A stretch of DNA of 42,021 nucleotides, from assembly GCA_039028155.1 (NCBI GenBank), contig JBCCIS010000044.1, forward strand, positions 1 to 42,021. Direction: 5' to 3'. Position 1 is the first letter of the stretch. Each line of letters starts with the position of its first letter. Source of the DNA: Pseudomonadota bacterium (lineage in GTDB: Bacteria; Pseudomonadota; Alphaproteobacteria; SP197). Below the pieces are notes generated by a model. It had not been told where the DNA came from, made no database searches, and worked only from the letters and a program-made list of their open reading frames with translations. Below are positions 3,689-33,841 of the stretch, one piece after another. A program made the translations under genes and the position numbers.

Positions 3689-3774
3689 CCGCCATTTCGG
3701 GGTGGCATATGCCGGTTTGCCATTGGATTCCGGCATTGAACGTCAGGCCCTCGCTCAGTGGAGGAGATGCCCCT
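3689..3774 (+). promoter_or_regulatory. ROSE-like RNA thermometer in the hsp20 leader
   Basis: The leader folds on paper into three successive hairpins. GCCA (3691-3694) pairs with TGGC (3703-3706). ATGCCGG (3709-3715) pairs with CCGGCAT (3730-3736). The last hairpin hides the ribosome site: UCGCU at 3751-3755 pairs with AGGA at 3762-3765, leaving the central G bulged. C3750-G3766 extends that helix, and GGC (3746-3748) pairs with GCC (3769-3771). U(U/C)GCU pairing with AGGA around a bulged G is the defining feature of ROSE elements, which control small heat-shock genes in alphaproteobacteria. The multi-hairpin layout and the target gene also fit. Melting of the last helix at high temperature would expose the ribosome site; this has not been tested here. 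Confidence 0.65.
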
Positions 3775-4236
3775 ATGGCCCGAATGACGGCCTTTGACAG
3801 CCCGCTTTTGCTGGGTTTTGACCATTTCGAGCGTGTGCTCGATCGGGTCGCCAAAACGTCCAGCGACGGCTATCCGCCCTACAACATTGAGCAGATCGGC
3901 GAGAACGGCCTCAGGATCACCCTGGCCGTGGCCGGCTTCACCATGGACGATTTGAGCGTCCTGGTGGAGGAAAACCAGCTGATCGTGCGCGGCAAACAGG
4001 TCGACGACGACAAGCGGATCTACCTGCATCGCGGCATCGCCGCGCGCCAGTTCGTGCGCAGCTTCGTGCTCGCCGAGGGTATCGAGGTTGTCGGCGCGTC
4101 GCTCGACAACGGCCTACTGCATGTCGACCTGGAACGGCCGATCCCGGAGGTCAAACAAAAGGTCATCGACATCAAGGCCGGCGACGGAACCGGTAGCCGC
4201 GCCAAGATCGTCGAGGGTCTGGAGCAGAAGTCCTGA
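3775..4236 (+). CDS. Small heat-shock protein, Hsp20/alpha-crystallin family
   Basis: A 153-residue Hsp20 chaperone of the IbpA-like bacterial class. The short N-terminal arm has PLLLGFDHFERVLDRV. The alpha-crystallin domain follows, roughly residues 35-130, including LAVAGFTMDDLSVLVEEN and the conserved A-x-x-x-N-G-L-L motif (GASLDNGLLHVDL). A charged tail with an I-x-I-type segment (VIDIKAG) closes it. Such proteins bind unfolding polypeptides without ATP and hand them to other chaperones. An in-frame ATG exists at 3709, but it lies inside the structured leader. The ATG at 3775 has GGAGGAG about 9 bases upstream and gives the family N-terminus, so it is chosen. Regulation is probably by a sigma-32 promoter plus an RNA thermometer. 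A DUF1150 gene follows 41 bases downstream. Confidence 0.93.
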   Translation: MARMTAFDSPLLLGFDHFERVLDRVAKTSSDGYPPYNIEQIGENGLRITLAVAGFTMDDLSVLVEENQLIVRGKQVDDDKRIYLHRGIAARQFVRSFVLAEGIEVVGASLDNGLLHVDLERPIPEVKQKVIDIKAGDGTGSRAKIVEGLEQKS

Positions 4237-4277
4237 CCGCGTAACACGCCGCATGACGGGTGTAGAGGAGAGTAACC

Positions 4278-4508
4278 ATGCCGAACACGGAGAACACATT
4301 CAAAGACGCGATCGCCGCCATGTCGCCGGAGGCGTTCGCCAAAATGGGCGCGCCGCATCTGGCCTATGTCGCGCCGGTCGAGACCGAGCAGGGCAAGGCC
4401 TATGGCATCCATGGCGCGGACGGCAGCCTGCTGGCCGTCGTCGAATCGCGTGAGCTGGCGTTTGTCGCCGCGCGCCAGAACGACCTGGAGCCGGTCAGCA
4501 TCCAGTAA
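4278..4508 (+). CDS. DUF1150 family protein
   Basis: A 76-residue protein with the DUF1150 pattern: an N-terminal acidic helix, then MGAPHLAYVAPV and YGIHGADGSLLAVVESRELA, ending in a short tail. The family is small, alphaproteobacterial and functionally uncharacterised. It commonly sits directly behind an hsp20 gene, as here (41 bases), so a link to the heat-shock response is plausible. A strong ribosome site (GAGGAG at 4265-4270) precedes the ATG. No membrane segment or cysteine pair is present. Confidence 0.85.
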   Translation: MPNTENTFKDAIAAMSPEAFAKMGAPHLAYVAPVETEQGKAYGIHGADGSLLAVVESRELAFVAARQNDLEPVSIQ

Positions 4509-4540
4509 CGCGGATCAACCATCTTTAAGCGCGCTAACGC

Positions 4541-4620
4541 GCGGACCCCTCACCCCGGCCCTCTCCCTAAAGCGGAGAGGGCGCCCAGCATTGTTTCCCT
4601 CTCCCCTGGAGGGAGATGGA
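4541..4620. repeat. Non-coding C-rich hairpin pair of the dispersed-repeat type
   Basis: CCCTCTCC at 4559-4566 pairs with GGAGAGGG at 4574-4581 across a 7-base loop. A second hairpin follows, CTCCC at 4601-4605 with GGGAG at 4611-4615. The wording 'CCCCTCACCCCGGCCCTCTC' resembles extragenic palindromic elements scattered through many proteobacterial genomes. No second copy was seen in this window. It may also end transcription behind the DUF1150 gene, although no T-run follows. Confidence 0.5.
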
Positions 4621-4658
4621 CGTGCAGGCTTGGCCGCGCTAGCGCCTCGGAGCCCGGT

Positions 4659-4684
4659 CGACCCACATCGAACGATGTGGGTCG
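4659..4684. repeat. Perfect 12-bp inverted repeat with a 2-base spacer
   Basis: CGACCCACATCG (4659-4670) is followed by AA and its exact reverse complement CGATGTGGGTCG (4673-4684). It lies in the 320-base gap between the DUF1150 gene and the first EamA transporter, about 145 bases before that transporter's start. The near-continuous dyad could be a protein-binding operator, a terminator or the second half of an extragenic repeat. The rest of the gap shows no gene. Confidence 0.6.
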
Positions 4685-4828
4685 TGAATCGGCCTCCCAT
4701 TCTTAGATAAGAGCTAGTCCATGGATTAGCCTAGCTTGGGCCGAAGCTGGGTGAGGGTGCTCATGGCCGCTTGTCAGCACCCCATTCGGCACCGATAGTG
4801 CCCGCTCCAAACTCGGGGCGGGCCTGCC

Positions 4829-5746
4829 GTGTCATCCAATCCATCCCCCGACGGCGACTGGCGCGGCCGGCTTCACGGCATCGCCTTTATGTTGGTCGGC
4901 ATCACGCTGTTTGCCTGGCATGACGCGCTGAACAAATGGCTGGTGACGGCCTATTTCGTCTACCAGCTGTTGCTGTTGCGGTCGCTGTTTTCCTTTGTGC
5001 CCGTGCTGGTACTGGTCCGCCGGGCAGGCTTCCGCAAGACGCTGACGACACGCAAGTTCGGCGCGTTGCTGCTGCGTGGCTTCTTGTTGTTCATGGCGTT
5101 CGCGACCTGGGTCGGCGCGCTCGACATGGTGCCGCTTGCCGACATGGTGGCGGTCGGGATGGCGATGCCGCTGGTGGTGACGGCGTTCGGTGCGCTGCTG
5201 CTGGGCGAAACCGTCGATGCCCGGCGCTGGGCCGCGATCTTCGCCGGGTTTTTCGGCGTTCTGCTGATCGTCGGGCCCAGCGGCGAGTTCCCGTTGGCCG
5301 CGACCATGCTGGCGATGTCCTCGGTGGTCTTTTTCGGCATGGCGTTCGTGCACACGCGCCGGTTGGGTGTGACCGAATCTGCCGAGACCATGGTGCTCTT
5401 CCAGATCATCTTCAACAGCATCGGCAGCGGTGTGGTGCTGCTGATCCTGCCTGGCGAATGGCTGACACCCAGCATCGTCGACTGGGGTCTTTTCGCCGCC
5501 GTTGGTCTGTGCGCGGGCCTCGCCCAATTCTGCATGACCAGCGCGTTCCGTGCCGCGCCGCTATCGGTGGTCGCGCCCTTTGAGTACCTCGCGCTCGTCT
5601 GGGCTGTTATCCTGGGTTATGTCGTTTGGGGCGACATTCCGGATCTATGGTCGGTGGCGGGGGCTCTGATTGTGGTCGCGAGCGGTCTTTACACGGTGTA
5701 CAGGGAGGCGTCGCTGCGACGCGCGACTTCCGGCGGGCCGCCTTGA
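4829..5746 (+). CDS. EamA-family (DMT superfamily) transporter, first of four
   Basis: A 305-residue membrane protein with about ten hydrophobic segments in two EamA repeats, the standard DMT architecture. The first segment begins RLHGIAFMLVGITLFAWHDA. The second repeat ends with PFEYLALVWAVILGYVVWGD, the family's final-helix pattern. Members export or exchange metabolites such as amino acids or nucleobases; the substrate is unknown. The GTG at 4829 is the start that leaves a short hydrophilic N-terminus. It is the first of four adjacent paralogues on this strand. Its stop shares one base with the ATG of the next gene (TGATG), indicating an operon with tight coupling. Confidence 0.9.
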   Translation: MSSNPSPDGDWRGRLHGIAFMLVGITLFAWHDALNKWLVTAYFVYQLLLLRSLFSFVPVLVLVRRAGFRKTLTTRKFGALLLRGFLLFMAFATWVGALDMVPLADMVAVGMAMPLVVTAFGALLLGETVDARRWAAIFAGFFGVLLIVGPSGEFPLAATMLAMSSVVFFGMAFVHTRRLGVTESAETMVLFQIIFNSIGSGVVLLILPGEWLTPSIVDWGLFAAVGLCAGLAQFCMTSAFRAAPLSVVAPFEYLALVWAVILGYVVWGDIPDLWSVAGALIVVASGLYTVYREASLRRATSGGPP

Positions 5747-6639
5747 TGGCCAGCCACGCCCACCGACCGCTGCTCGGCATCGTCTACATCAACGTCGCGT
5801 TAATGATCCTTGCCTGCAACGAGGCTTTGATCCGGCTCCTCACAGAGGACTATTCACCGATCCAGATCGCCTTCATTCGGTTCGTCGTCATGGCGATCCT
5901 GGTCGGTGCCGCCATCGTCGGCATGAAGCGTCGCGAGCTGTTCCAAGCCAACAGATGGTGGCTTTTGGTTCTGCGCGGTGTGCTGGGGGCCATCGCGAGC
6001 GGCAGCTTCTTCTTCAGCATCAAGTTTCTTGAGCTCGACGACGCGACCACGATCAGCCTATCGGCGCCGATCTTCGTCGCGGCGCTGTCGGGCTGGCTTT
6101 TGCGCGAACGCGTCCCGGCGGCCCGATGGGGCGCCGTTGTTCTGGGGTTTGTGGGGGTCGCCATCGTCATGCGCCCGGGCGCCGGGCTGTTCAATATCTG
6201 GGCCTTCGTCGCGTTCATCTCGGCCGGCGCTTACGCGCTCGCCATGATGGTCAACCGCGTCCTCACGCGCACGGAAGACAGTCTGACAATCATCTTTTAC
6301 TTCCCTCTGTTCGGCAGCCTAACACTGTTGCCGTTCATGCCGTTTCTCTGGACGTCAACGCCGGCCTCGGAATTCCCGATGCTCTTCGCCGTCGGTCTTC
6401 TCGCGGGCATCACGCAGTACTTGATGATGCAGGCTTATCGCTTTGCCGCCGCAAACACGGTGATCACGTTCGATTACATGGGTGTGCTCTACATTGCGAT
6501 CATCAGCTATCTGGTCTTTGCCGAGATCCCCAGTTGGAACCTGATTGCCGGCGCCGTGCTGCTGATCGCCAGCGGTATCTTCATCGTTTATGACGAAGCG
6601 CGACAGCTCAAACGCATGGCGGGCGAGAGCAAGGCGTGA
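5746..6639 (+). CDS. EamA-family (DMT superfamily) transporter, second of four
   Basis: A 297-residue, roughly ten-helix EamA protein. It opens with LLGIVYINVALMILACNEAL and ends with TFDYMGVLYIAIISYLVFAE before a short charged tail. The frame stays open upstream to 5626, inside the preceding gene. The ATG at 5746 overlaps the previous stop by one base and places the first helix correctly, so it is used. Its N-terminus and that of the third transporter (LLGIAYINVAVIFYALQDGL) are clearly alike, pointing to a local duplication. The physiological substrate cannot be inferred. Confidence 0.9.
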   Translation: MASHAHRPLLGIVYINVALMILACNEALIRLLTEDYSPIQIAFIRFVVMAILVGAAIVGMKRRELFQANRWWLLVLRGVLGAIASGSFFFSIKFLELDDATTISLSAPIFVAALSGWLLRERVPAARWGAVVLGFVGVAIVMRPGAGLFNIWAFVAFISAGAYALAMMVNRVLTRTEDSLTIIFYFPLFGSLTLLPFMPFLWTSTPASEFPMLFAVGLLAGITQYLMMQAYRFAAANTVITFDYMGVLYIAIISYLVFAEIPSWNLIAGAVLLIASGIFIVYDEARQLKRMAGESKA

Positions 6640-7496
6640 GGGCTGGTGATCGATCGCTTCTGGGCATCGCCTATATCAATGTTGCCGTCATTTTTTATGC
6701 GCTACAGGACGGTCTGGTCCGTTACCTGACTGCGGACTATCCGGTGCTCCAAATTCAGTTCGTCCGCTCGGCGGTGATGATGTCGACCATGCTCGTGATC
6801 ATCGTGTCGCTGCGACGTTTCGCCGATCTGAGACCACGTCGGCTGGGATTGCTGATGTTCCGCGGGTACACGAGCCTGATCGGTGTCGCCCTGATGTATC
6901 TGGTGTTGGCCAACATGGCGCTAGCCGACGCGTTCACCATCTTCATGACCGGTCCAATCTTCATTGCGCTGTTCGGTATTCCGATCTTGAAGGAGAAGGT
7001 TGGTTTAACGCGCGCGATTGCCATTGGCGTCGGATTCATCGGCGTGGTGGTCATCATGGAGCCGGGCAGTGGCGTCGCGACCCAATGGGCCATCGTTGCC
7101 TTGCTGGGCGCTGCGATCTATGGGCTTGCCATGGTCACGACACGTGACCTGACCAAATCGGAAAGCAGCCTGACCATCGTCCTGTTCACCAATCTGTTCG
7201 TCGTTGCGGTTCTGCTGCCGGTGCAGCCTTTCATATGGGTTGTTCCGCCGCTTACCGATCTTGTGTTGTTGCTGGCGGTTGGCGCCTTGGCGACGCTGGC
7301 GCAGTTTCTGCTGGCCCAGGCCTATCGTCACGCCAGCGCCGCGACCGTCGCGCCGTTCGACTATGTCGCCTTCATCTATGTTGTCATCGTCGGCTATCTG
7401 ATGTTCGGCGAGGTGCCCACCTGGCAGGTTGGCCTGGGCGCCGCTATCCTGATCGCCAGCGGTTTGGTCATGGTACGCCACGAGCGCGGTCGCTAA
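6636..7496 (+). CDS. EamA-family (DMT superfamily) transporter, third of four
   Basis: A 286-residue EamA protein with two five-helix repeats. The GTG start overlaps the previous stop by four bases (GTGA), so translation is probably coupled. The first helix reads LLGIAYINVAVIFYALQDGL and the last-repeat signature is PFDYVAFIYVVIVGYLMFGE. It is the closest relative of the second transporter among the four by eye. All four keep the (P/T)F(D/E)Y signature near the C-terminus while loops and mid-protein helices differ. That pattern fits either divergence in substrate or paired function. Confidence 0.9.
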   Translation: MRAGDRSLLGIAYINVAVIFYALQDGLVRYLTADYPVLQIQFVRSAVMMSTMLVIIVSLRRFADLRPRRLGLLMFRGYTSLIGVALMYLVLANMALADAFTIFMTGPIFIALFGIPILKEKVGLTRAIAIGVGFIGVVVIMEPGSGVATQWAIVALLGAAIYGLAMVTTRDLTKSESSLTIVLFTNLFVVAVLLPVQPFIWVVPPLTDLVLLLAVGALATLAQFLLAQAYRHASAATVAPFDYVAFIYVVIVGYLMFGEVPTWQVGLGAAILIASGLVMVRHERGR

Positions 7497-7576
7497 GAAT
7501 TACCATTCTAAGCGTTGCGCTGCGCCCGCCATGGCTCTATGCGAGTGTTTCCAACGTCCATTCGGACCACACCAAC

Positions 7577-8506
7577 GTGTCAGATTCTGCAAAGTCCGCC
7601 GACCAGGGCTCGCCGGTCGTCGCGATCGTTTTGATCAGCCTGTCGATCGCCGCCTTCTCCGTGTCCGACGCCATCGTCAAATGGGTCGCAGGCGAGTATC
7701 ACTTCACCCAGATCATTCTAATCCGCAGCCTGGTCGCGGTCCCGTTTGCATTGATACTGGTGGCGCGCAGCGGTGGCCTGCACCGTCTGGGTTTCGTCAG
7801 TCACCGCATTGTCCTGATGCGCGTCGTCTTTGGCACGACATCCTTCATCACCTTCATCGAGGCGCTCAAGGTGCTTCCGCTCGCCGAGACGGTCGCGGTG
7901 TCGTTCGCTGGACCGTTGTTCATTACAGCGCTGAGCGTTCCGTTGCTGAAAGAAAAGGTCGGGCCAAGGCGCTGGGCGGCGGTCGTCGTCGGATTCGCTG
8001 GCGTCCTTATCATCATGGAACCGGGCACGGCGGTGTTCCAGCCGGCCGCACTATGGGCGCTCGCCTCGGCCGCATTCTACGCGCTTGCAGCGATTGCCAC
8101 GCGCAAGCTGGCGGTTGCGACATCGACCGCGGTCATCCTGGTCTGGGTCAACGGCTACATTCTCGTCATCATGGCGATTGGCGTCGTACTGCTGGATACC
8201 TGGGTTGCCATGGACTGGCTGGGTCTGGCCCTGCTGCTCGGTATCGCGTTTGCCAGCACGATCGGTCAGTACCTCGGCGTTGAAGCGTTTCGTCGCGCCG
8301 CGCCGTCGTTGCTGGCGCCGTTCGACTATGTGGCACTGATCTGGGCCGGATTCCTGGGCTTCATGATCTGGCATGAGATCCCGTCGTGGAGCCTGGTTGG
8401 CGGTTCCGCCGTTCTGGTCATGAGCGGTCTTTACATCCTGCAGCGCGAGCGCGCGCTGGCGCGCAATGCGGTCACCGGCTATCGGGGCCTGCGCCGCTGG
8501 CGGTAG
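7577..8506 (+). CDS. EamA-family (DMT superfamily) transporter, fourth of four
   Basis: A 309-residue EamA protein with about ten membrane segments, starting near VVAIVLISLSIAAFSVSDAI and ending with PFDYVALIWAGFLGFMIWHE. The frame is open back to 7235 inside the previous gene. The only credible start after that gene's stop is the GTG at 7577, which gives a 14-residue hydrophilic lead; the ribosome site is weak. An 80-base gap separates it from the third transporter, so it may have its own promoter or be read through. It converges with the M23 peptidase gene, leaving seven bases between stops. Confidence 0.88.
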   Translation: MSDSAKSADQGSPVVAIVLISLSIAAFSVSDAIVKWVAGEYHFTQIILIRSLVAVPFALILVARSGGLHRLGFVSHRIVLMRVVFGTTSFITFIEALKVLPLAETVAVSFAGPLFITALSVPLLKEKVGPRRWAAVVVGFAGVLIIMEPGTAVFQPAALWALASAAFYALAAIATRKLAVATSTAVILVWVNGYILVIMAIGVVLLDTWVAMDWLGLALLLGIAFASTIGQYLGVEAFRRAAPSLLAPFDYVALIWAGFLGFMIWHEIPSWSLVGGSAVLVMSGLYILQRERALARNAVTGYRGLRRWR

Positions 8507-8513
8507 CGAGCCG

Positions 8514-9488
8514 TCAGGGTATGTGCAGCGTCAACTCGGCATCGGTGATGATCTGCCAGCCGTCGGTGCCGGGCCGCATCAGCGTCACGCTGCCACGGTA
8601 TTCGCCGACCGGCCAGCCGCTCTCGGGCCTGTGGTAGCCGGCCTGGGTCAACAGGCGCGCGGCCACCGTGTCGAGTTCCGTCGGCTCGGCCGCCAGGATA
8701 CGGCCGTCTGGCGCCAGCAAACGCGCTTCTACGCGATCACCGGGCCTTAAGCCAAAGAGATCGGCCCAGAAGACAATGGTCGCGGCGTCGGGCATGGCTG
8801 GCGCCGGTGTCGCTCCGTCGCGGATCAGGTCACCGGCAAACCCGTGGCCCAGAAGGCCGGTGGGGCGATAGGCCAACACCTCGGCCGCCGCGCCGGACCA
8901 CAGCGACGCCAACGAGACGCCGCAGATGATGCCGGGGCCGGTGCCGGAAAAGGGGTCGACCACCGCGCCATGATGCTGGACTTCGAAGTGCAGATGGTCG
9001 AACCGTGCTTCGCCGCTGTTGCCGATCGTGCCGATACGTTCGCCCGCGACGACGGTTGCGCCAGCGTCGACGATGACACTGCCGGGCGCCATGTGGGCAT
9101 AAAGCGTTGTCCATCCCCCACCATGATCAATGACGACATGGTGTCCCGGTTGGGTCCAATGCAGCTGCGATGCCGTCTTGGGCGGTGAGCCAACGGTCTT
9201 CACCCGTCCGTCTGCCGCTGCAAGAACCGCGACCGGTTCGACATCTGGCGCACGGTCGACCAACGTAAAGTCGGTGCCGGTATGGCGGTCGAAACTGAGA
9301 CTGCCGCAGGTATAGTCGCCGAAGCCGGGTCCGGCGTCATGATCGACATAATTCTGAACGAAACACTGCTCGCCGATGGCGCAGGCGACGGGCAGATCAA
9401 GCTTCGGCAGCTCGCCTGCATGCGCTGTAAAGACAGCAAGGAAAGTCGCCGCGAGTGCCGGTCCGGCGAGCCACGCGCGACGGGCCAC
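8514..9488 (-). CDS. Exported M23-family metallopeptidase (LytM-like)
   Basis: A 324-residue protein with a cleavable signal peptide (ARRAWLAGPALAATFLAVF, cleavage near AHA-GE) and an M23 domain over roughly residues 60-185. Zinc ligands fit His69 and Asp73 in HTGTDF and His167 in DHLHFEV, with His132 in YAHM and His165 also conserved. All key residues are present, so it is likely an active endopeptidase on peptidoglycan cross-links in the periplasm. About 135 further residues form an unrecognised C-terminal domain. The GTG start lies three bases after the chvG stop on the same strand, so it is almost certainly co-transcribed with the ChvI-ChvG system. This suggests cell-wall remodelling as part of that envelope or acid response. 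Confidence 0.9.
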   Translation of the reverse strand: MARRAWLAGPALAATFLAVFTAHAGELPKLDLPVACAIGEQCFVQNYVDHDAGPGFGDYTCGSLSFDRHTGTDFTLVDRAPDVEPVAVLAAADGRVKTVGSPPKTASQLHWTQPGHHVVIDHGGGWTTLYAHMAPGSVIVDAGATVVAGERIGTIGNSGEARFDHLHFEVQHHGAVVDPFSGTGPGIICGVSLASLWSGAAAEVLAYRPTGLLGHGFAGDLIRDGATPAPAMPDAATIVFWADLFGLRPGDRVEARLLAPDGRILAAEPTELDTVAARLLTQAGYHRPESGWPVGEYRGSVTLMRPGTDGWQIITDAELTLHIP

Positions 9489-9491
9489 GGC

Positions 9492-11240
9492 TTAGGTGCC
9501 GGTCAGCAGGCGCACGGTGAAACACGCACCGTCTGGCGACGCCGGATTGCTGCCCAGGTTCGATGCTGTGATGGTGCCGTGATGGGCTTCGATGATCTGG
9601 CGCGAGATGCTGAGGCCCAGACCCGAATGGGTGCCGAACTTCTCACCCGGCGGACGATCGCTGTAGAAACGATTGAAGATATCGTTTTCCTTGCCGGCGG
9701 GAATGCCGGGACCCTGGTCGCTGACCGTGATCTCGACCCAACGTCCGTCCTGGCGCGCGGCGATGCGCACGGTTCCGTCAGGCGGGCTGAACGAGCGCGC
9801 GTTGACCAAGAGGTTGCGGAACACCTGGACCAGGCGGTCTTCGACGCCGCGGACCACGAAACGGCCGGCGACATCGGCGCCGCTGAGTGCATCGTTCAGG
9901 TCGACACGCGGACCGTCGTCGCCCCAGGTGGTCTGCATGACCATGGCCAGTGCCTGCAGGGTCGCGCCGATATCGACCTTCTCCGTGTCGGCGCGATTCA
10001 ACTCGGCATCGAGGCGTGAGGCATCGGAGATGTCGGTGATCAAGCGGTCGAGACGGTTCAAGTCGTCGGCGGCGATCGCCATGAGCTTGGCGCGCCGCTC
10101 CGGGTCCTCTATGCGCTGGATGGTTTCAAGCGCGCTCTTGAGCGACGACAGCGGGTTCTTGATTTCATGCGCGACATCGGCGGCGAACCGCTCCGTCGCC
10201 ATCATGCGGTTTTCCAGGGTGCGCGTCATGTCGATCAGCGCGCGCGACAGCTCGCCGATCTCGTCGCCCCGACTGGCAAAATCGGGGATCGAGCCTGCCT
10301 TGCCGGTGCCGCGCCCGACCTTCTCGGCAGCCAGCGCCAGCTTTCGGACCGGCCGCGCGATCGTGCCGGCGAGGTAGAGCGACATCAAGACGGTCAGACC
10401 GAACGACAACAGCGCCAAGGCCAGGATGTCGCTGCGCACCGCACGCAATTCGCGCTCCACGTCGCCCAGATCCGATGACAACAGCAGCGCACCCTGAACC
10501 TGTTTGAAGTGGCTGACCGGAACCGCCACGGTCAGGATCAGACCGCCGCGCCCGGCATCGCGCAGAGCTTCGTCACCCATGCCGTTCAGCGCGTGGACGA
10601 CTTCGGGATAGTCATAGGCCGTCTGATCGGCGCGCTCCGAGTATGGTTCGTTGGTCTGCCACACCGACGAGACGCCGAGTGCGATCCGGTCGAGCCGGCG
10701 CAAAAGGCGTTCGAAGGAATCGAGATCGCCGGGTGGCGGCAAGTACTCACGGTGCACGGCGCCGCCGGTGCCGACCAGTTGGCGGCTATCGGCAATCAGC
10801 GCGCCGTCGGCGCCGAACAGGCGGGCGCGAATGCCGGCCGACTGGACCAGGCGCCGGATCAGCGCGCGCGCATCCTCCTCCAGGATTTGCGTGACAGGCG
10901 GCGCGGAGACGTCGTCCAGGCCGAATGCAACAACGGTCTCGCCCAGCGCGCCGGCAATCAGCTCGCCATTGGTGGTCAGCGAGTTGACCTTCTCGGCGAT
11001 CAAGCCTTCGCGATAGTTGTCGAGATAGAGAACGCCCGCAAGAAACAGCGCCAGCGGCACCAGGTTGATGGCCAGGATGCGCCGCGTCAGCGATGCCGAT
11101 GGATGCCGGTCGATCTCCTCGCGCGGGTCCGCCGTGACCGATGGGCGTTCAGCCGGCCCAATGATCGTGTCGGCATTACGCTCGGTGTCGACCGCCGTCA
11201 GGCGGGGTTCACGTCTCCTTAAAGCGGTATCCGACGCCAT
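9492..11240 (-). CDS. chvG: ChvG-type sensor histidine kinase
   Basis: A 582-residue membrane sensor kinase. After a hydrophilic N-terminus of about 50 residues come TM1 (about 54-74), a periplasmic sensor region of about 195 residues, TM2 (about 271-293), and a HAMP linker. The dimerisation box [19 protein letters not shown] carries the phospho-accepting His358. The ATPase domain has DQGPGIPAG and the F-box NDIFNRFYS. The architecture and box sequences match ChvG/ExoS, which in alphaproteobacteria senses acid or envelope signals and phosphorylates ChvI. Its start overlaps the end of chvI by 32 bases, so the two form one transcription unit. The long N-terminus before TM1 leaves some doubt about the exact start. 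Confidence 0.9.
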
Positions 11241-11961
11241 ACAGTGTCTCGATCTGCCCGAATTCCGGATCGATCATCCGGAACTTCTTGCGGATCCTTT
11301 TAATGTGGCTGTCGATCGTGCGGTCATCGACATAGATGTTGTCATCATAGGCCGCGTCCAACAGTTGGTCGCGGCTCTTCACGTGTCCCGGGCGCTGCGC
11401 GAGCGACTTCAGGATCAGGAACTCGGTGACCGTCAGGGTGACGCGCAAACCCTTCCAGGTGCACATGTGGCGCGCGGGATCGAGCGTCAGTTCGCCGCGC
11501 TCCATCTGCGGCTCGATCTCCTCGTCGTCTTCGGGCAGCTCGCCGCTGACCAGATCCGCGCGGCGCAGGACGGCGCGGATGCGCTCGGTGAGGAGGCGCA
11601 GCGAGAACGGCTTGGTGATGTAGTCATCGGCGCCCATCCTCAGACCCAGCGCCTCGTCGGTTTCGTCCGCCAGCGAGGTCAGAAAGATGACCGGCAGGTC
11701 CTTGTCGCGGCGCAGGCGGGTCAAAAGCTCCATACCGTCCAGGCGCGGCATCTTGATGTCCAAGACGGCGATGTCGGGCGGGCTGGCGGAAATGGCTTTC
11801 AGGGCCTCGACGCTGTCGGAGAAGCACTGAACTCGGTAACCCTCGGCCTCCAGGGCCATGGACACGGAGGTCAGAATATTCTGATCATCGTCGACAAGTG
11901 CGATGGTCTGGCTCAACGGAACGCAACTTTCGGCTAAGGTTTCAATGGCTGTGTTCATCAT
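11209..11961 (-). CDS. chvI: ChvI-type response regulator
   Basis: A 250-residue OmpR-type regulator. The receiver domain has the acidic pocket VDDDQ, the phospho-accepting Asp68 in [12 protein letters not shown], and the conserved lysine in YITKPFS. The C-terminal winged helix includes [20 protein letters not shown] and [17 protein letters not shown], ending in GVGYRFKE. The linker is unusually acidic ([12 protein letters not shown]). The frame is open to 12018, but the tandem ATGs at 11961 and 11958 follow an AGGGTGG-like ribosome site and give the family N-terminus. ChvI controls envelope, exopolysaccharide and acid-response genes in related bacteria. It is divergent from a HugZ-like gene across an 82-base gap that must hold both promoters. 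Confidence 0.9.
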
Positions 11962-12043
11962 CAGTCTACCACCCTGGCGGCCAAAAATGATACGGCAGGA
12001 CTGCCCTATCCATGGCAACTGACCCCAGAAGGAAGGCGGATTT

Positions 12044-12751
12044 GTGGCTGAAATCGAGGCTTTAGACCGGGCTCGGCGGCTGCTGCGCGGCGCGGGTTAC
12101 GGCACGCTGGCGACCCTGGACGGCCGTGACGGCGGGCCTTTCGCCTCGCTTGTGGCCATGGCGACGACGCCTGACGGTGCTCCGGTGATGCTTCTGTCGG
12201 ACCTTGCCGAACACACCAAAAATCTCGCCCAAGACACCCGGGCATCGATTCTGATCGATGGCACCGCGGGGTTGTCCGATCGGTTGACAGGCCCGCGGCT
12301 GACACTGGTAGGGCGCGTTGAGCCCACTACCGACGACGATGCAATCAAGCGCTACCTCCTGCGCCACCCTTCCGCGGCGCTGATCGGTGGGTTCGCCGAT
12401 TTCCGCCACTACCGGCTCGTGATCGAGCGGGCGCATCAAGTCGCCGGATTCGGCCGGATCGACGACCTGGACGGCGGCGACCTTCGCGTCGCGCAATCGC
12501 TTGCAGCTGACATAGCCGCGCTGGAGGTTGACGCGTTGGCGCGGATGAACGCGCTTCACCGACAAACGCTGGACGTCTTCGGCCCTGATGCTGTCATCGC
12601 TGCCCTTGATGCCGACGGTGCGGAACTACGTTCACTTGACCGGGCGGCACGTGGCGACTTTGACCGACGCCTGGGTACAGTCAGCGAGCTCGACGACGCG
12701 GTTGGCGCGTTGATGTATCGCATGGGGCAGGACACCACACCAAAGGGCTGA
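12044..12751 (+). CDS. HugZ-like / pyridoxamine-phosphate-oxidase-fold protein
   Basis: A 235-residue protein with an N-terminal split-barrel, FMN-binding-like domain ([20 protein letters not shown], then [20 protein letters not shown] and HTKNL). The C-terminal region with [11 protein letters not shown]-like helices resembles the DUF2470/HugZ type. Relatives bind flavin or heme, and some degrade heme; the heme-binding histidine cannot be assigned with confidence. The GTG at 12044 follows GAAGGAAGG at 12028-12036. It lies between chvI (divergent) and pckA, genes often directly adjacent in rhizobia, so it looks inserted in a conserved neighbourhood. A role in heme-iron use would fit the iron-uptake genes farther along, but that is speculation. 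Confidence 0.75.
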
Positions 12752-12770
12752 GACAAACACGATTCCGGTC

Positions 12771-12799
12771 TTGTCATGGCCTGTTACTTGGCGTTGAAT
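12771..12799 (+). promoter_or_regulatory. Candidate housekeeping promoter of pckA
   Basis: TTGTCA at 12771-12776 and TTGAAT at 12794-12799 are separated by 17 bases, a fair sigma-70-type match. A small hairpin (CCCC at 12803-12806, GGGG at 12814-12817) lies just downstream. The leader to the pckA ATG would be about 70 bases. Only motif spacing supports it. Confidence 0.35.
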
Positions 12800-12878
12800 C
12801 CTCCCCTTCTTGCGGGGCGCCGGGGAAACGCTTCGTTCTTTTAACATGGGCGCGAAAGTACCGGGAGGGCCGCTACTT

Positions 12879-14489
12879 ATGCAGGTGTATGGACCAGTCC
12901 ACAGTTCATTTGGACTGGACAAGCTCGGCCTCGTCAATCTGGCGGGCCAATACTGGAACCTGGGCACTCCGGCGCTTTATGAGGAGACCATTCGCCGCGG
13001 CGAGAGCAGGATGGCGGCAGGCGGTCCTTTGGTCGTCCTGACCGGACAACACACCGGGCGCTCGGCGCGCGACAAATTCATCGTGCGCGACGACGTCACC
13101 GATGGCGAGGTTGACTGGGGCAAGGTCAATGTCGCTATGGACCCGGACAACTTTCAAACGCTGAAGCAGCGTTTCCTGGCCTACTACCAGGGCCGCGACG
13201 CGTTTGTGCAGGACCTCTATGGCGGTGCCGACCCGGATTTCCGGGTCAAGGTGCGTGTTGTCACCGAACAGGCCTGGCACAGTCTTTTCGCGTCCAATCT
13301 TCTGATCCGGCCGCCGCTCGATCAGCGGCGCGACTTCGAGCCCGAATTCACGATCCTGCAGGCGCCCGGCTTCGTCGCCGATCCGGCGATCGACGGCAGT
13401 CGTTCGGAAACCGTGATCGTCATGAATTTCACCGAGCGGCTGGTGCTGATCGGCGGGACATCCTATGCCGGCGAGATCAAGAAATCGGTCTTCTCGATCC
13501 TGAACTTCCTGTTGCCGCCGCGCGACGTCCTGCCCATGCACTGTTCCGTCAATGTTGGCGAGGACGGTGATTCGGCTGTCTTCTTCGGCCTTTCCGGCAC
13601 CGGCAAGACGACGCTTTCGGCCGATCCCCGACGTACGCTTGTGGGCGATGACGAACACGGCTGGGGCGAGAACGGCGTTTTCAATTTTGAAGGCGGCTGT
13701 TACGCCAAGGTCATCCGCCTCTCGGCGGAGGCCGAGCCGGAAATCTATGCCACGACGAAACGCTACGGCACGGTGCTGGAAAACGTGGTCATGGATCCCG
13801 ATAGCCGCGTCCTTGACCTAGACGATCCGCATTTCACCGAGAATACACGCGCGGCCTACCCGCTGGACTTCATTCCGAACGCTTCGCCGACCGGCCATGC
13901 CGGTCACCCCCACAATGTGGTCATGCTGACAGCCGATGCCTTCGGCGTTCTGCCGCCAATCGCCAAGCTAACGCCCGAACAGGCGATGTATCACTTCCTG
14001 TCCGGTTACACGGCCAAGGTCGCGGGCACCGAGAAGGGCCTGGGCAACGAGCCGCAAGCGACGTTCTCGACCTGCTTCGGCGCGCCTTTCATGCCGCGCC
14101 ACCCTTCGGTCTATGCGCGCATGCTGGCCGACAAGATCCAGAAGAACGGCGCCGACTGCTGGCTGGTCAACACCGGCTGGTCTGGCGGTGCCTATGGCGT
14201 CGGCGAGCGTATGTCGATCCGCCACACCCGTGCGCTGTTGGGCGCCGCTCTCGACGGCTCGCTTTCCAAGGCGTCGTTCCGCGAGGACAGTAACTTCGGC
14301 GTGTTGGTGCCCGAATCCTGCCCCGACGTGCCGGGAGAGGTGCTCAATCCGCGCGAGACGTGGTCAGACAAGGGCGCTTACGACAGCCAGGCGCGCGACC
14401 TGTGCGACCGCTTCCACAAGAACTTCGAGGTCTTCGCACCCTATGTCGACGACCAGGTGAAGTCGGCGGGACCGAACATGGCGGCGTAG
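12879..14489 (+). CDS. pckA: Phosphoenolpyruvate carboxykinase (ATP)
   Basis: A 536-residue ATP-dependent PEP carboxykinase, the usual family length. It converts oxaloacetate and ATP to phosphoenolpyruvate, CO2 and ADP, the committing step of gluconeogenesis from C4 acids. Visible motifs include [10 protein letters not shown], the P-loop [14 protein letters not shown] with Lys243, the metal-binding VGDDEHGW, and the substrate region [17 protein letters not shown]. The frame opens at 12810, but the ATG at 12879 has GGGAGGG about 10 bases upstream and gives the family start ([17 protein letters not shown]). The gene lies beyond the HugZ-like gene from chvIG; proximity of pckA and chvIG is a known alphaproteobacterial arrangement. 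A strong bidirectional terminator follows. Confidence 0.96.
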
Positions 14490-28150: not shown

Positions 28151-29194
28151 TTAACGGCCTGTGCCCTGCATGGGTGATGGCCCCAGTGCGATGCCTGACT
28201 GGGCAGCCGGATCGACCAGAAGATCGGACGGCTTCACGCCATATTGCCGTCGGAACAGCTTGGCAAAGTGACTGGGATTGGCGTAACCGATCGCCATCGA
28301 TACCTCGGTGACGCTATCGGCGCCGGTTTCCAGCATGTGCTTCGCATGCTCCAGCCGCGAACGCTGCAGGAAGCCATAGACGGGCTCGCCGAACTTGGCG
28401 CGGAAATCAACCTTCAGGCGCTTCTCCGACAAACCGACCTCGCGGGCCACGTCGCGCACCTTCCACGGCCGCGACAGATCCGACAGCATCACCGCCTTGG
28501 CTTCTTCCAGGCGCTGGGCGTTGCGGATCGATTTGGTGCCCTGACAGAACAGCGGCTCCGACACCGCGACCATGACCGTGTTCAAGATGTCCAGGCCGCG
28601 CGCTTCGACCAGAAGGTCGTCACTGCCGTCGACACTGACGTCCAAGAGATGAAGGGCGGCTTCGCGAAGCGGCGCCGACGTCGGGAACCCGCCGATCCAA
28701 GACGTCCGACTGGCGGATATGGTTAGCGAATGTGGTGTCTGTAAAACGCTTTGAAAGAGATCAAGGCCGCCGATCCGATCCAGACAATCCAGACCAACGC
28801 GCACCTCTGCACCGCGCATTCGACCATCGACGGCGGTCCGATACACGCCATGGACGGGGTCTGGACTGAAGAAGACATAGGTCATGCCCGACTCGTAGGG
28901 CATCAGCACATCGGTTTCGCCCTTGATCCGTGCGAACCGGCTTTCGCCATTGCCGTCAAGCATGACCACGGCGACCAGGCAGGGACCGCTCTGTACCTCG
29001 CTGATTGCGCCGGCGGAGATCTCCAAGTCGAACACGGAAATGACCAGATCCGGTCGGGCGGCATAACGACGCAACACGCCGCCAAAGTTCTGCATGCGGT
29101 CGATCTGCTCTTTTTCCGTCGACTCGCTTGCCTCTGACTGGGACAGCACGCGTTCTTCGTAGGTGATCGTGTCGTGCGGTTTCATCGTTTCCAT
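28151..29194 (-). CDS. AraC-family regulator, PchR/RhrA-like
   Basis: A 347-residue regulator. The first 250 residues form a sensing domain I cannot name. The last 100 are a two-helix-turn-helix AraC domain: VRDVAREVGLSEKRLKVDF, then FLQRSRLEHAKHML, and SMAIGYANPSHFAKLFRR with KPSD at the end. The form is closest to PchR and RhrA, activators of siderophore uptake genes. The frame is open to 29326, but the ATG at 29194 (or 29185) is favoured because longer forms would cross the shared control region. It is divergent from an MFS-TonB receptor operon, and two tandem repeats lie between. It probably activates that operon when the siderophore is present. Confidence 0.82.
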   Translation of the reverse strand: METMKPHDTITYEERVLSQSEASESTEKEQIDRMQNFGGVLRRYAARPDLVISVFDLEISAGAISEVQSGPCLVAVVMLDGNGESRFARIKGETDVLMPYESGMTYVFFSPDPVHGVYRTAVDGRMRGAEVRVGLDCLDRIGGLDLFQSVLQTPHSLTISASRTSWIGGFPTSAPLREAALHLLDVSVDGSDDLLVEARGLDILNTVMVAVSEPLFCQGTKSIRNAQRLEEAKAVMLSDLSRPWKVRDVAREVGLSEKRLKVDFRAKFGEPVYGFLQRSRLEHAKHMLETGADSVTEVSMAIGYANPSHFAKLFRRQYGVKPSDLLVDPAAQSGIALGPSPMQGTGR

Positions 29195-29253
29195 CAACCA
29201 ATCCGCGACATTAGTAGGCCAAATCGCACCACTTCGGAACCGCCAACAAAAAG

Positions 29254-29297
29254 GACCCGATCGCGTTGCCGGTGACCCGGATCGCGGTAGCCGGGTG
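29254..29297. promoter_or_regulatory. Tandem direct repeats, probable AraC-type operator
   Basis: Two adjacent imperfect copies share the words GACCC, GATCGCG and GCCGG in the same order: copy one at 29254-29274, copy two at 29274-29297. Their starts are 20 bp apart, about two helical turns. AraC-family proteins typically bind tandem direct repeats of about this period. The position, between the regulator and the operon it should control, fits. A further GAACCGCCA word occurs at 29237-29245 and 29304-29312, bracketing the pair. Confidence 0.6.
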
Positions 29298-29339
29298 TTT
29301 TCCGAACCGCCATCAAGAGCTCGCACAGTCTGGGGGGAC

Positions 29340-30602
29340 GTGTTGGCTCATCGATCGCTGCGGGCGCCAGGCCAATGGACATGGCTCGCGATCCCGCTCT
29401 TCAGCGGGCTCTATGCCGCGCAGGGCATGACCGGTTCTCTGGTGCAGACGGCGCTGCCCACGGCGCTTCGCGACGCCGGTATGGCGCTCGACAAGCTGGG
29501 ATTCCTCTATTTCCTCTACCTGCCCTGGGCGCTCAAGTTCCTGTGGGCGCCGGCGGTCGACCGTTTCTCGGTGATGCAACTCGGCCGACGTCGGTTTTGG
29601 CTGCTGCTGTGCCAGTCCGGCCTGATCATCAGTCTGATCGTTGTCGGTTTTCTGCCGCCTGATCCGCATCTCTACGCACTCTTGGCGGCATTGCTGATCG
29701 TGGCGTTGCTGGCCTCGACCCAGGATATTGCGACCGATGCCCTGGCCGTCGAGGCGACGGCCGAGAACCGACGCAGCCTGGTCAGCGGTGCGGGTGTCGG
29801 CGGCGCCTATCTGGGCTTCCTGATCGGTATCGGCCTGTGGCTGCCGATCTATGCGGCGGTGGGCTGGATGTGGGCGATGCTGGCCATGGCGGGGTGCCTG
29901 ATCGTCTGTACCGTCCCGGCTTTGCTGGCGCGCCCGTTCGATCAAACATCGTCGGACGTTGAAATGGGCCAGCGTCCCAGCGTCTGGTCGGGCCTAAAAA
30001 ACCCGACCCTGCGCAGGGGTTTGCTGTTTCTGGTCGTCTATCAAGCGGGCCTGCGTCTGGGGATCGCGCTGTTGGGTCCCTTTCTAGTGGATTCCGGCAT
30101 GAGCCTGACGGAGATCGGCTGGCTGAAGGGAACCGGCGGCGCGATCATCGGTTTCGCTGCGGCGGTTCTCGGCTGCCTCGTCCTGCGCTGGATCGGACCG
30201 CGCGCCGCTCTTGTTTCCGCCGCCCTGGGTCAGGCCGTCCTCTATGGCTCGCTCGCAGCTGTCGCGCTTGGCGGCTATGGGGACCGCGAGTTTCTCGTCG
30301 TGTTGATCCTCGCCCTGTCGGCCGTCACCTCGTTCGCCTTCGTCTCTCTCTACACGGTGATGATGGGTTGGTGCCGGCGTACGCAGACCGGCACCGATTT
30401 CGCGCTTTTGCAAAGCGCCGATGCCGTCGTCGCCATCGCGCTTGCCGCTGTCGCGGGTCTGGTGAGCGAAGCGTTCGGCCATGCCACGAACTTTGCCGCC
30501 AGCGCCGTGCTGCTGACCTGTGGCGCCGCGGCGGCCCTTTGCCTGAGCGCGCTTATCCCGCGCTTGGCGAAGGCAGACCTCGAAACCGCCCAATCAACAT
30601 AG
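29340..30602 (+). CDS. MFS siderophore importer, RhtX/FptX-like
   Basis: A 420-residue, roughly twelve-helix MFS permease. It opens with IPLFSGLYAAQGMTGSLVQT and has LPWALKFLWAPAVDRFS, then ASTQDIATDALAVEA, a pattern shared by AmpG and by RhtX/FptX single-component siderophore importers. The companion TonB receptor and PchR-like regulator favour the siderophore assignment over muropeptide uptake. It would move the ferri-siderophore from periplasm to cytoplasm without an ABC system. The frame is open from 29163 across the control region. The GTG at 29340 just after GGGGGG is chosen, and a TTG at 29343 is possible. The receptor gene follows after 28 bases. Confidence 0.8.
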   Translation: MLAHRSLRAPGQWTWLAIPLFSGLYAAQGMTGSLVQTALPTALRDAGMALDKLGFLYFLYLPWALKFLWAPAVDRFSVMQLGRRRFWLLLCQSGLIISLIVVGFLPPDPHLYALLAALLIVALLASTQDIATDALAVEATAENRRSLVSGAGVGGAYLGFLIGIGLWLPIYAAVGWMWAMLAMAGCLIVCTVPALLARPFDQTSSDVEMGQRPSVWSGLKNPTLRRGLLFLVVYQAGLRLGIALLGPFLVDSGMSLTEIGWLKGTGGAIIGFAAAVLGCLVLRWIGPRAALVSAALGQAVLYGSLAAVALGGYGDREFLVVLILALSAVTSFAFVSLYTVMMGWCRRTQTGTDFALLQSADAVVAIALAAVAGLVSEAFGHATNFAASAVLLTCGAAAALCLSALIPRLAKADLETAQST

Positions 30603-30630
30603 CGTTTTCGGTAACCCGGAGATCAAGACC

Positions 30631-32634
30631 ATGACACGTCGTCTGCTTCCTTTTGCTCTGCTGCCCGTCGTGGCCCTCGGCTTGTCGCACCAGGAGGTGT
30701 TCGCGGAGGACGAGGATACGGTGATCATCCTGAACCCGATCACGGTTGTCGGGACCAAGCGCGACGAAGACCCGTTCGAGGTCGATGGCATGATCGCGGT
30801 CGTCGAACCAGAGGAGCTCTACAGTCGCGACTTCCTCATGGTCGACCAGCTCGACCGCGTCTTCGCGGACGTCAATATCCGGCAGCGTTCAAGCCGGGCC
30901 TACACCAACGTCACGATCCGCGGTCAGTCCTCCGTCGACTTCTATAATCCGACGACGCAGATCTACATCGACGGCCTGCCTCAGGATCAGACCCTGTTCG
31001 GCCAGTTGCTGCCGCAAGCGCTTGAGCAGGTCGAACTGCTCTATGGCCCGCAGGGTACGTTGTATGGCCGCGGCGCGGTCGGTGGCGTGTTCAACATCGT
31101 CACCAGGAAACCCGACAACGTGCTGAGCGCCGATGCCACGGGCTCCTACGGCAACCTGCAACACGACGGCGCGCTTCTGGTCAACATTCCGCTCGTCGAC
31201 GAAATGCTGTTCGCGGATTTCGCGCTGGCCGGCATGAAGGAACAGGGCGAATACCGGCAGGCGGTCACGAACAAGGCCATCGGCGACAGCAACATCTGGA
31301 ACGGACGCGCGCGTCTGCGCTATGCGCCCTATGACAGCCCCTGGGATATCATGGTGACCGCCGCGCACGACGACGTCAGCTCCGACGAGGAGCAGTATGT
31401 GCAAGCCTTCAATATCGAGCGCAGAATCGCTCTTCCCGTTAGCTCGCAGTACACGCTCGACACCAACAGCTACAGCGCGACCGTGTCTTACGATCTCGGT
31501 TTTGCCGAGCTGACCTCCTTTACCGGCTATCAGGACCGCGACCTCGATCGCACGATCTTCGGTTCCTACACGCCGGAGACCCAATGGACGCTCAGCGAAG
31601 AAGTGCGTCTGGCGACGGTACCGGACGACGAGCGCGCAATTGACTACGTCGTCGGTCTTTATGCCCAGCGCTTGGACTTCGAGCGCAACGTACCCGCCGC
31701 CTTCCAGACATCGCAGCAAACGATCGACACCTACGCCGTCTTCGGTGAGGCGACCTGGCATGCGACCGATCGTCTGGATGTAACGCCCGGCCTGCGCTTC
31801 GACTACGAGCGGGCCGACGCCACGGCCGTCGGCGCGGTGACCTTGTCGAACAGCGACAGTTGGAGCGCCGTCTCACCGAAGTTCGCGTTGGGATATGCCC
31901 TGGAGGACGATTGGCGCGTCTACGGCCTCTATTCGACCGGCTTCAAGGCCGGCGGATTCACGCGCAACGTCTCGCCCGCGAACATCGCCTTTTCCTATGA
32001 CCCGCAGTACACCCACAACTTCGAGGTCGGCACGAAACTCATGGCGCTGGACGGTCTTCTCGAGTTCTCCGCCGCCGCCTACTACAACATCACCAAGGAC
32101 TACCAGCTCTTCGTCGGGTTGCAGCCGAATCAGTATCTGCAGAATGTCGGCGAGGTCGAGGGGCGGGGCATTGACTTCATGCTGACCGCCTATCCGACTG
32201 ATCAGCTTGCGGTGACCGGCAACCTCGCTTTCAACAACACCGAGTTCACCGAGTACGCCAATCCGACAACGCCCGGTGTCGACCTTACCGGCAACACCGT
32301 GCCCTACGCGCCGCCGGTGACGGCGAACCTGAACGTCGTCTACGACCTCGATATCGCGCCCCGGAACGGCGACCTCGCCGTTCATGGCGGCATCACCTAT
32401 GTCGGCGAGATCTATTTCGACGAGACCAACACGATCGGTCAGGGCGGCTACACGCTGCTTGATGCCGGCATCACCTGGACGTTCAACGAGAACGTCTCGG
32501 CAAGCGCCTATATCGACAACATCACCGACAAGACCTACGCGGTATACGGATTTAACGGCGGCCCGTTCCTCGGCAATCTCTTCCAGCTCGGCGAGGGCCG
32601 CAACTACGGCGCGCGCCTCACACTCAGCTTCTGA
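30631..32634 (+). CDS. TonB-dependent outer-membrane receptor
   Basis: A 667-residue receptor with a signal peptide (cleavage near VFA-EDE). The TonB-box-like segment is ILNPITVVGTK. The plug domain spans roughly residues 50-160 (IRQRSSRAYTNVTIRGQ, then YGPQGTLYGRGAVGGVFNI), and a 22-strand beta-barrel ends in the aromatic NYGARLTLSF. Complete and intact. It would import a ferric siderophore across the outer membrane using TonB energy. It has no N-terminal signalling domain, consistent with control by the AraC-type regulator rather than an ECF sigma factor. It is second in the operon, 28 bases after the MFS importer. Confidence 0.93.
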   Translation: MTRRLLPFALLPVVALGLSHQEVFAEDEDTVIILNPITVVGTKRDEDPFEVDGMIAVVEPEELYSRDFLMVDQLDRVFADVNIRQRSSRAYTNVTIRGQSSVDFYNPTTQIYIDGLPQDQTLFGQLLPQALEQVELLYGPQGTLYGRGAVGGVFNIVTRKPDNVLSADATGSYGNLQHDGALLVNIPLVDEMLFADFALAGMKEQGEYRQAVTNKAIGDSNIWNGRARLRYAPYDSPWDIMVTAAHDDVSSDEEQYVQAFNIERRIALPVSSQYTLDTNSYSATVSYDLGFAELTSFTGYQDRDLDRTIFGSYTPETQWTLSEEVRLATVPDDERAIDYVVGLYAQRLDFERNVPAAFQTSQQTIDTYAVFGEATWHATDRLDVTPGLRFDYERADATAVGAVTLSNSDSWSAVSPKFALGYALEDDWRVYGLYSTGFKAGGFTRNVSPANIAFSYDPQYTHNFEVGTKLMALDGLLEFSAAAYYNITKDYQLFVGLQPNQYLQNVGEVEGRGIDFMLTAYPTDQLAVTGNLAFNNTEFTEYANPTTPGVDLTGNTVPYAPPVTANLNVVYDLDIAPRNGDLAVHGGITYVGEIYFDETNTIGQGGYTLLDAGITWTFNENVSASAYIDNITDKTYAVYGFNGGPFLGNLFQLGEGRNYGARLTLSF

Positions 32635-32659
32635 TCGTCAGCGGGTCGACACACCAGCC

Positions 32660-33841
32660 ATGGAACGACCCCTTGCGGTCATCTGCGGCGCGGGCGTGGC
32701 CGGTCTGGCGGCCGCCTATTGCCTGCATCGTGTCGGCTGGCGATCGGTCGTGGTGGAAAAGGCCGACAACCTACGCCAGGGCGGCTATTTCGTCGGTCTT
32801 TCCGGGGTCGGCTACATGGCCGCCCGCGACATGGGCATCCTGCCGCAGCTCGAGGCCGTGGCGCGCGATATCGACGAAAATGTCTACTTCGATCGGCGGG
32901 GCAGGGAAATCATGCGGCTCAGGTACCGCGACTTTCTTGCCCATGTGCCGTTCCTGGTGCTTCATCGGACCGATCTGATCGCGACCTTGGAAGGTCTCGT
33001 CAAACCGGTTGTAGATCTGCGTCTGGCGACCACGGTCGCCGATGTCGACGACACCGGCGGGGCCGTCCGGGTGTCGCTGTCGTCGGGCGAGACCTTGACC
33101 GCCGACCTGATGATCGGGGCGGATGGGTTCCGCTCGACGCTCAGGCGGCGCCATTTTGGTGACGATGACGCCTTTTTGCGGCCGCTTGGCTATCGGTTCG
33201 CCGCCTACGACCTCCCTGACAGCCTGGGCCTCGGGTTCGATTTCCTATCCTATTCGACACCCGGCCAGCTCGCCGAATACTACACCTTGGCACAAGGCCG
33301 ATTGGCGGCGGTCCAGGTATGGCGTAGCCATGTGACCGGCGCCGTCCCGGAGAATGAACGCTGGGATCTCCTGACCGACGTTGCCAAGCTGAACCACCCC
33401 GACGTCCTGCAGATGATCGAAACCGCCCGCGTTGATGCCGTGCCCATCGTCGATGACATGTCGCTGGTCGACATGCCGGCCTGGTCAAAGGGCAGAGTCC
33501 TGCTGCTGGGCGATGCCGCCCACTGTCTGACCCTCGTCTCGGGCCAGGGCGCCGGACTGGCCCTGGCTTCGGCCGTGATCCTGGCCTCGAAGCTCGCTCA
33601 GCACGATGTCCACGGGGCCGTTGCGAAGCACGACGCGCAGCTGAGACCGGCGGTGAACCGGTTGCAGGAGAGGAGCCGCCGCATGGCCTCGTGGTTCATT
33701 CCAGCGTCCCGCCTGGGCTATGTGGCGCGCAACACGGTGCTCAAGAACATACCGACGTCATGGCTGGGACGTTACTTCAACAAAACGCTGATGTCGGAGA
33801 TCGAGGCGGTCGGCACCTTGCCGGATATCGGTCGAGAGTGA
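32660..33841 (+). CDS. FAD-dependent monooxygenase (PF01494-type)
   Basis: A 393-residue flavoprotein of the aromatic-hydroxylase class. The dinucleotide-binding motif is VICGAGVAGLAAAYCL at the N-terminus. The second FAD motif is LMIGADGFRST in the middle. The third is VLLLGDAAHCLTLVSGQGAG, so the cofactor sites are complete. These enzymes use NAD(P)H and O2 to hydroxylate ring substrates. The ATG at 32660 is 25 bases after the receptor stop, so it is the last gene of the siderophore operon. It could modify the imported siderophore to release iron or allow breakdown, which is inference from context. The C-terminal 60 residues (basic, hydrophobic) may be membrane-associated. Confidence 0.85.
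   Translation: MERPLAVICGAGVAGLAAAYCLHRVGWRSVVVEKADNLRQGGYFVGLSGVGYMAARDMGILPQLEAVARDIDENVYFDRRGREIMRLRYRDFLAHVPFLVLHRTDLIATLEGLVKPVVDLRLATTVADVDDTGGAVRVSLSSGETLTADLMIGADGFRSTLRRRHFGDDDAFLRPLGYRFAAYDLPDSLGLGFDFLSYSTPGQLAEYYTLAQGRLAAVQVWRSHVTGAVPENERWDLLTDVAKLNHPDVLQMIETARVDAVPIVDDMSLVDMPAWSKGRVLLLGDAAHCLTLVSGQGAGLALASAVILASKLAQHDVHGAVAKHDAQLRPAVNRLQERSRRMASWFIPASRLGYVARNTVLKNIPTSWLGRYFNKTLMSEIEAVGTLPDIGRE

Follow-up and report, generated by a model that had tools for sequence, protein, structure and literature searches.

Four adjacent EamA genes in an alphaproteobacterium probably form an old cluster of separate transporters

The drug/metabolite transporter (DMT) superfamily includes YddG, described as an amino acid transporter with ten transmembrane (TM) helices (PMC6508934), and the small multidrug resistance (SMR) proteins, whose adjacent paired genes are described as encoding proteins of opposite Lys/Arg bias in more than 95% of cases (PMC9574504). 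Paired SMR heterodimers, such as MdtI/MdtJ, are built from subunits of approximately 100 residues encoded by adjacent paralogous genes in one operon. Here we describe four consecutive EamA genes, named E1 to E4, in a 42,021-nucleotide stretch of alphaproteobacterial DNA, which is the whole of contig C44 in a genome (G000) of 5.31 Mb and 118 contigs and is referred to here as the window. Our data suggest that these genes probably make up an old group, arranged like an operon, of four ten-TM EamA/DMT transporters, each complete and working separately. The original prediction had offered recent duplication, a multi-subunit exporter, or several related substrates as explanations; the last is the option left standing, and the best reading of the array is that substrates have diverged among independent exporters.

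All four genes lie on the forward strand. E1 occupies positions 4829..5746 (305 amino acids (aa), GTG start), E2 5746..6639 (297 aa, ATG start), E3 6636..7496 (286 aa, GTG start), and E4 7577..8506 (309 aa, GTG start); the E4 start at 7577 is the first start codon in the open frame that fits the orthologues and was picked by comparison with them. A profile search found two PF00892 stretches in each protein, far exceeding the gathering score of 28.2 bits (E1, 1e-20 and 74.8 bits; E2, 5.2e-28 and 98.4 bits; E3, 4.2e-25 and 89.0 bits; E4, 2.6e-17 and 63.8 bits). E1 and E2 overlap by 1 base within TGATG, E2 and E3 overlap by 4 bases within GTGA, and 80 bp separate E3 from E4. The open reading frames (ORFs) and the PF00892 matches together confirm the original prediction of four consecutive same-strand EamA genes, the first three overlapping by 1 and 4 bases, and the likeness of the E2 and E3 N-termini holds as well. 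The (P/T)F(D/E)Y signature is present in all four proteins (APFEY in E1, ITFDY in E2, APFDY in E3 and E4), although it sits in TM9, the penultimate helix (model helix 236-258 in E2 and 243-265 in E4), and not in the final helix to which it had been assigned.

We found that both modelled members of the array, E2 and E4, have the ten-TM fold of the EamA/DMT superfamily. The AlphaFold models of E2 (41 alignment rows; predicted local distance difference test (pLDDT) 87.4, predicted template modelling score (pTM) 0.85) and E4 (52-row alignment; pLDDT 90.3, pTM 0.87) are complete ten-TM bundles. Among our family alignments, A5 comprised 51 of 78 E4-like loci, four with an in-frame stop being left out, and A6 comprised 41 rows. 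The best Foldseek matches of E4 were SLC35B1 (1.9e-7), PDB entry 5i20 (1.7e-6), and Vrg4, while E2, compared by VIA-align, matched LicB (Z 26.8), SLC35B1 (26.7), and 5i20 (24.3), plus a triose-phosphate translocator, with the next unrelated rows at approximately 8. Entry 5i20 carries the database label 'uncharacterized protein', and we take it to be YddG. The array resembles YddG-type EamA/DMT exporters in its two EamA repeats, its ten TM helices, and sequence profile matches to 5i20 at 0.0007-0.005; it differs in that identity over the structural alignment is about 14-20%, that four genes stand in a row, and that export is putative. A single-protein phmmer search of E2 against the PDB returned nothing at 1e-3, and E1 to E4 scored 34.6-54.0 bits against the TIGR00950 model of carboxylate/amino acid/amine transporters, below its cut-off of 230.2 bits.

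We then compared the slot that holds the array, defined as the interval between EstD-(DLH)-HSP20-DUF1150 on the left and M23-ChvG-ChvI-HugZ-PckA on the right, across the family. Presumably the right-flank ORFs labelled ChvI and HugZ are what their names say, labels that come from sequence reading and context. The slot was readable in 11 of 16 family genomes; in G013 contig ends interrupt it at either side, and a search at E <= 1e-100 found no ChvG-like kinase in four genomes of genus g3 (G008, G010, G011, and G014), so the slot was not read there. G001, the sole other genome of genus g1 that we found, carries E1-E2-E3-E4 in the same order (92, 90, 91, and 95% identity, respectively), with the E1/E2 and E2/E3 overlaps kept. 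Two g2 genomes (G002 and G006) carry E1-X-E4, where X is the orthologue of E2/E3 in sister genera, with an overlap between E1 and X; three g3 genomes carry X-E4 without E1; G007 has X alone, E4 and M23 being missing; G003 and G004 have no EamA gene in the slot; and G005 holds one EamA gene of another lineage. The occupancy of the slot across the 11 genomes is therefore 4, 4, 3, 3, 2, 2, 2, 1, 0, and 0, plus 1 of another lineage, a readable series in one place of a transporter cluster kept, doubled, and lost. Counting orthologues, E4 has 7 (63-67% identity in G002, G006, G009, G012, and G015), E1 has 4 (62% identity in G002 and 61% in G006, in the same slot in both), and E2 and E3 have 2 each; the only close orthologue of E2 is that of G001, and E3 is 43-46% identical to the X genes of g2 and g3. 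HSP20 stands beside the array in G002, G006, G007, G009, G012, and G015, DUF1150 in four of these, and the right-flank gene order is the same in relatives. The E4 orthologues also share a near-invariant C-terminal tail, AVTG(Y/W)RGLRRWR (7 of 7; window 8468-8503), which is predicted to be cytoplasmic. In G007, DUF1150 and X are separated by approximately 2.4 kb of other sequence (L066:4183-6393), with a coiled-coil Pfam match and, by eye, an amine-oxidase-like frame.

These data bear on whether the four proteins are subunits of one exporter, as the original prediction had considered. Such an exporter, in which at least two of the four form an obligate heteromer like paired SMR proteins, might be suspected from the overlapping genes and conserved order, and from the retention of X-E4 and of E1-X-E4 as sets in g3 and g2. 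We nevertheless regard it as improbable, given that E2 and E4 model as complete ten-TM units matching single-chain transporters and that members are lost singly: E1 is absent from g3 and E4 from G007 with X still there. The array shares with paired SMR systems its adjacent paralogous genes and its superfamily, whereas E1 to E4 are 286-309 aa with two repeats each. Furthermore, the lysine plus arginine bias is +6, +9, +9, and +9 for E1 to E4, all positive inside with the termini placed inside (+3 to +9 in 12 other rows counted), as against the opposite bias described for over 95% of adjacent SMR pairs (PMC9574504). Complete folds, a shared bias, and one-by-one losses favour four separate pumps over obligate heteromers.

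The origin of the array was addressed with a tree of 89 EamA proteins (the short row L127 being left out of the comparison), in which E1, E2/E3/X, and E4 form three separate groups. In clade tests, which leave out seven long-branch rows of the 89, a single clade of all slot genes was rejected (approximately unbiased test, p-AU 0.0017), as was an E1+E4 clade (p-AU 0.0027). A clade of E4+E2+E3+X was marginal (p-AU 0.040) and one of E1+E2+E3+X was not rejected (p-AU 0.106), so some of the slot genes may share an older ancestor. Recent tandem amplification, that is, the production of all four genes by local duplication of one, for example for dosage, would fit their head-to-tail arrangement on one strand and the E2/E3/X clade (support 99.7). 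It is highly improbable in light of the rejected clades, of protein identities of only 26-41% among E1 to E4, where near-identical copies in one clade would mark such an event, and of the placement of E1 and E4 beside EamA clades from other parts of the family genomes. The recent duplication proposed in the original prediction is thus contradicted, while paralogy in the wide sense is right. That prediction had also named a finding that would count against it, namely placement of the four in unrelated EamA clades together with no conservation of the cluster in relatives: the three lineages bear out half of the first part, and the second part fails, since G001 retains all four genes and sister genera have three, two, or one of them in the same slot.

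E2 and E3 are the only clear tandem copies in the array, and old ones. Neither E2+E3 as sisters (p-AU 0.34) nor E2+X (p-AU 0.36) was rejected, E3+X appears in the best tree at 87, and the shared residues conflict; the doubling may have occurred within g1, or earlier, E2 then having been lost from g2/g3. In a tree of five flank proteins, g1 lies outside g2+g3 (99/98), and g4 and g5 form the outgroup. Because g1 is the first branch and E1-X-E4 occurs in both g1 and g2, parsimony places at least E1, an X-type gene, and E4 together in the common ancestor of g1, g2, and g3. E1 was then lost in g3, with further losses in G007 and G003, a history of decay of the array outside g1 and not of new construction.

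The ratio of nonsynonymous to synonymous substitution rates (dN/dS) between G000 and G001 is 0.080 for E1, 0.105 for E2, 0.096 for E3, and 0.089 for E4, with 0.054-0.134 for five neighbours; all four genes are under purifying selection. The lineages have nonetheless settled on different residues: for pairs among the lineages E1, X, and E4, 101-120 columns are invariant in both members, and the residue is the same in only 48-59 of them. E2, the tandem sister of E3, is the most diverged member, departing from 7 of 30 family-conserved positions (3 for E3, 1 each for E1 and E4), including near-invariant A240 and P241 of TM9. Such departures would be in keeping with a role as a regulatory or partner subunit, and it is a long shot that E1 to E3, translationally coupled, hetero-oligomerise with E2 as the diverged partner of E3, which would make a bacterial DMT exporter with unlike ten-TM subunits; a search of the open-access literature turned up no such exporter.

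We asked how unusual a run of four EamA genes is. The genome of the window has 90 EamA half-domain matches, or approximately 47 genes when halves are paired, with one run of four (E1-E4) and one run of two; random placement of these genes would give approximately 3.5e-6 runs of four, a figure that shows only that the run is no coincidence, since tandem duplication is not random. By the family profile, with halves paired and single halves included, G015 has 54 EamA genes (eight runs of two, none of three, one of four) and G006 has 51 (six runs of two, three of three, none of four), so that the three genomes counted hold about 47-54 EamA genes each. The run of four in G015 (L075:1640-5338) consists of three intact genes overlapping by 4 bases and a fourth EamA stretch with a broken frame; the ORFs flanking it read as amidase-like and aminotransferase-like. 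Like E1-E4, the other arrays of the family (the L072/L073/L074/L075 triplet, the L070/L071 triplet, and the L076/L077 pair) are tandem, on one strand, and conserved between genomes, one EamA triplet being common to g2 and g3. Unlike E1-E4 with their three lineages, the genes of the L072-L075 triplet share a clade with just one gene of g1 (support 99), which fits local duplication. Scanning the named genomes with the E4 alignment gave 78 loci. Of these, 6 are arrays of the family itself, and among the matches listed no identity in the remaining 72 exceeds 41%. These 72, chosen by likeness to E4 and so not an unbiased background rate, include a run of two in 10 cases and a run of at least three in none, and the pairs examined among them are not best matches to E1-E4. 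An open-access literature search turned up no article about EamA gene arrays. Judging from the other family arrays, including the triplets and the broken run of four in G015, four intact genes are the extreme of a local habit and not a new kind of system.

That habit raises the question of whether the clustering has any function. The slot might simply tolerate or collect EamA genes, a notion in keeping with the many EamA tandems of the family, the gene of another lineage in the G005 slot, and the dispersed repeats at the edge of the array and, in G001, within it. We consider this unlikely, however, since gene order is conserved between genera, the overlaps recur in g1 and g2, and every copy is under purifying selection.

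For a cluster of four separate transporters, we suggest that an E1-E2-E3 message is most likely translated with coupling at the overlaps, and that E4 would be expressed from the same promoter or its own. A shared transcript or translational coupling would let the proteins be made together, and each would work alone by alternating access, like YddG. The exported small metabolites, which may be amino-acid-like or related, would differ between the products, both direction and substrates being putative. Several points weigh against this reading. The ten-TM models cover two of the four proteins (E2 and E4), E1 and E3 being placed by alignment only; co-transcription is inferred from gene spacing; and separable loss (three genomes keep X-E4 but lack E1, and G007 keeps only X) opposes obligate partners yet may be compatible with facultative hetero-oligomers. 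The relatives with names are metagenome-assembled genomes, and the G001 array takes up a whole contig of 4,085 bp, its flanks sitting unjoined on two other contigs. In G001, moreover, E3 and E4 are separated by a palindromic element of a dispersed type, so E4 may have a transcript of its own. The G001 element (L063:985-1204) is approximately 135 bp long, and the corresponding window interval, 7497-7577, is empty of it; the G001 E3-E4 spacer used as a query gave 49 matches in G001 and 44 in G000, as for a dispersed repeat resembling a miniature inverted-repeat transposable element (MITE). The array lends itself to the question of whether tandem DMT exporters divide substrates between them and is otherwise ordinary transporter biology.

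Upstream of E1, a weak promoter-like site, TTGTCA-17-GATAGT, lies at 4771..4799 on the forward strand (9 of 12 consensus matches); two such sites were found in 4400-9000 against 0.8 expected, which is not evidence of function. The 89 bp preceding E1 are 82% alike in G001. The intergenic sequence before E1 at 4529-4757 is built of dispersed repeats of the CTCACCCCGGCCCTCTCCC type, and the 320-bp spacer before E1 gave 31 matches in G000 and 53 in G001. The left flank (3709..4508, forward strand) encodes HSP20 (3709-4236; PF00011) and DUF1150 (4278-4508; PF06620). On the right (8514..14489) follow an M23 peptidase, a ChvG-like kinase, and a ChvI-like regulator, all on the reverse strand, then the HugZ-like ORF and PckA on the forward strand. 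The ChvG-like kinase, at 9492-12018 with its regulator, adjoins pckA, and its best NCBIfam model is ChvG (439.5 bits, under the cut-off of 740). Farther along, at 28151-33841, ORFs that read as an AraC-type regulator, an MFS transporter, a TonB-dependent receptor, and a FAD monooxygenase-like protein are adjacent, and this region resembles a siderophore or aromatic-compound uptake locus as judged from its predicted proteins.

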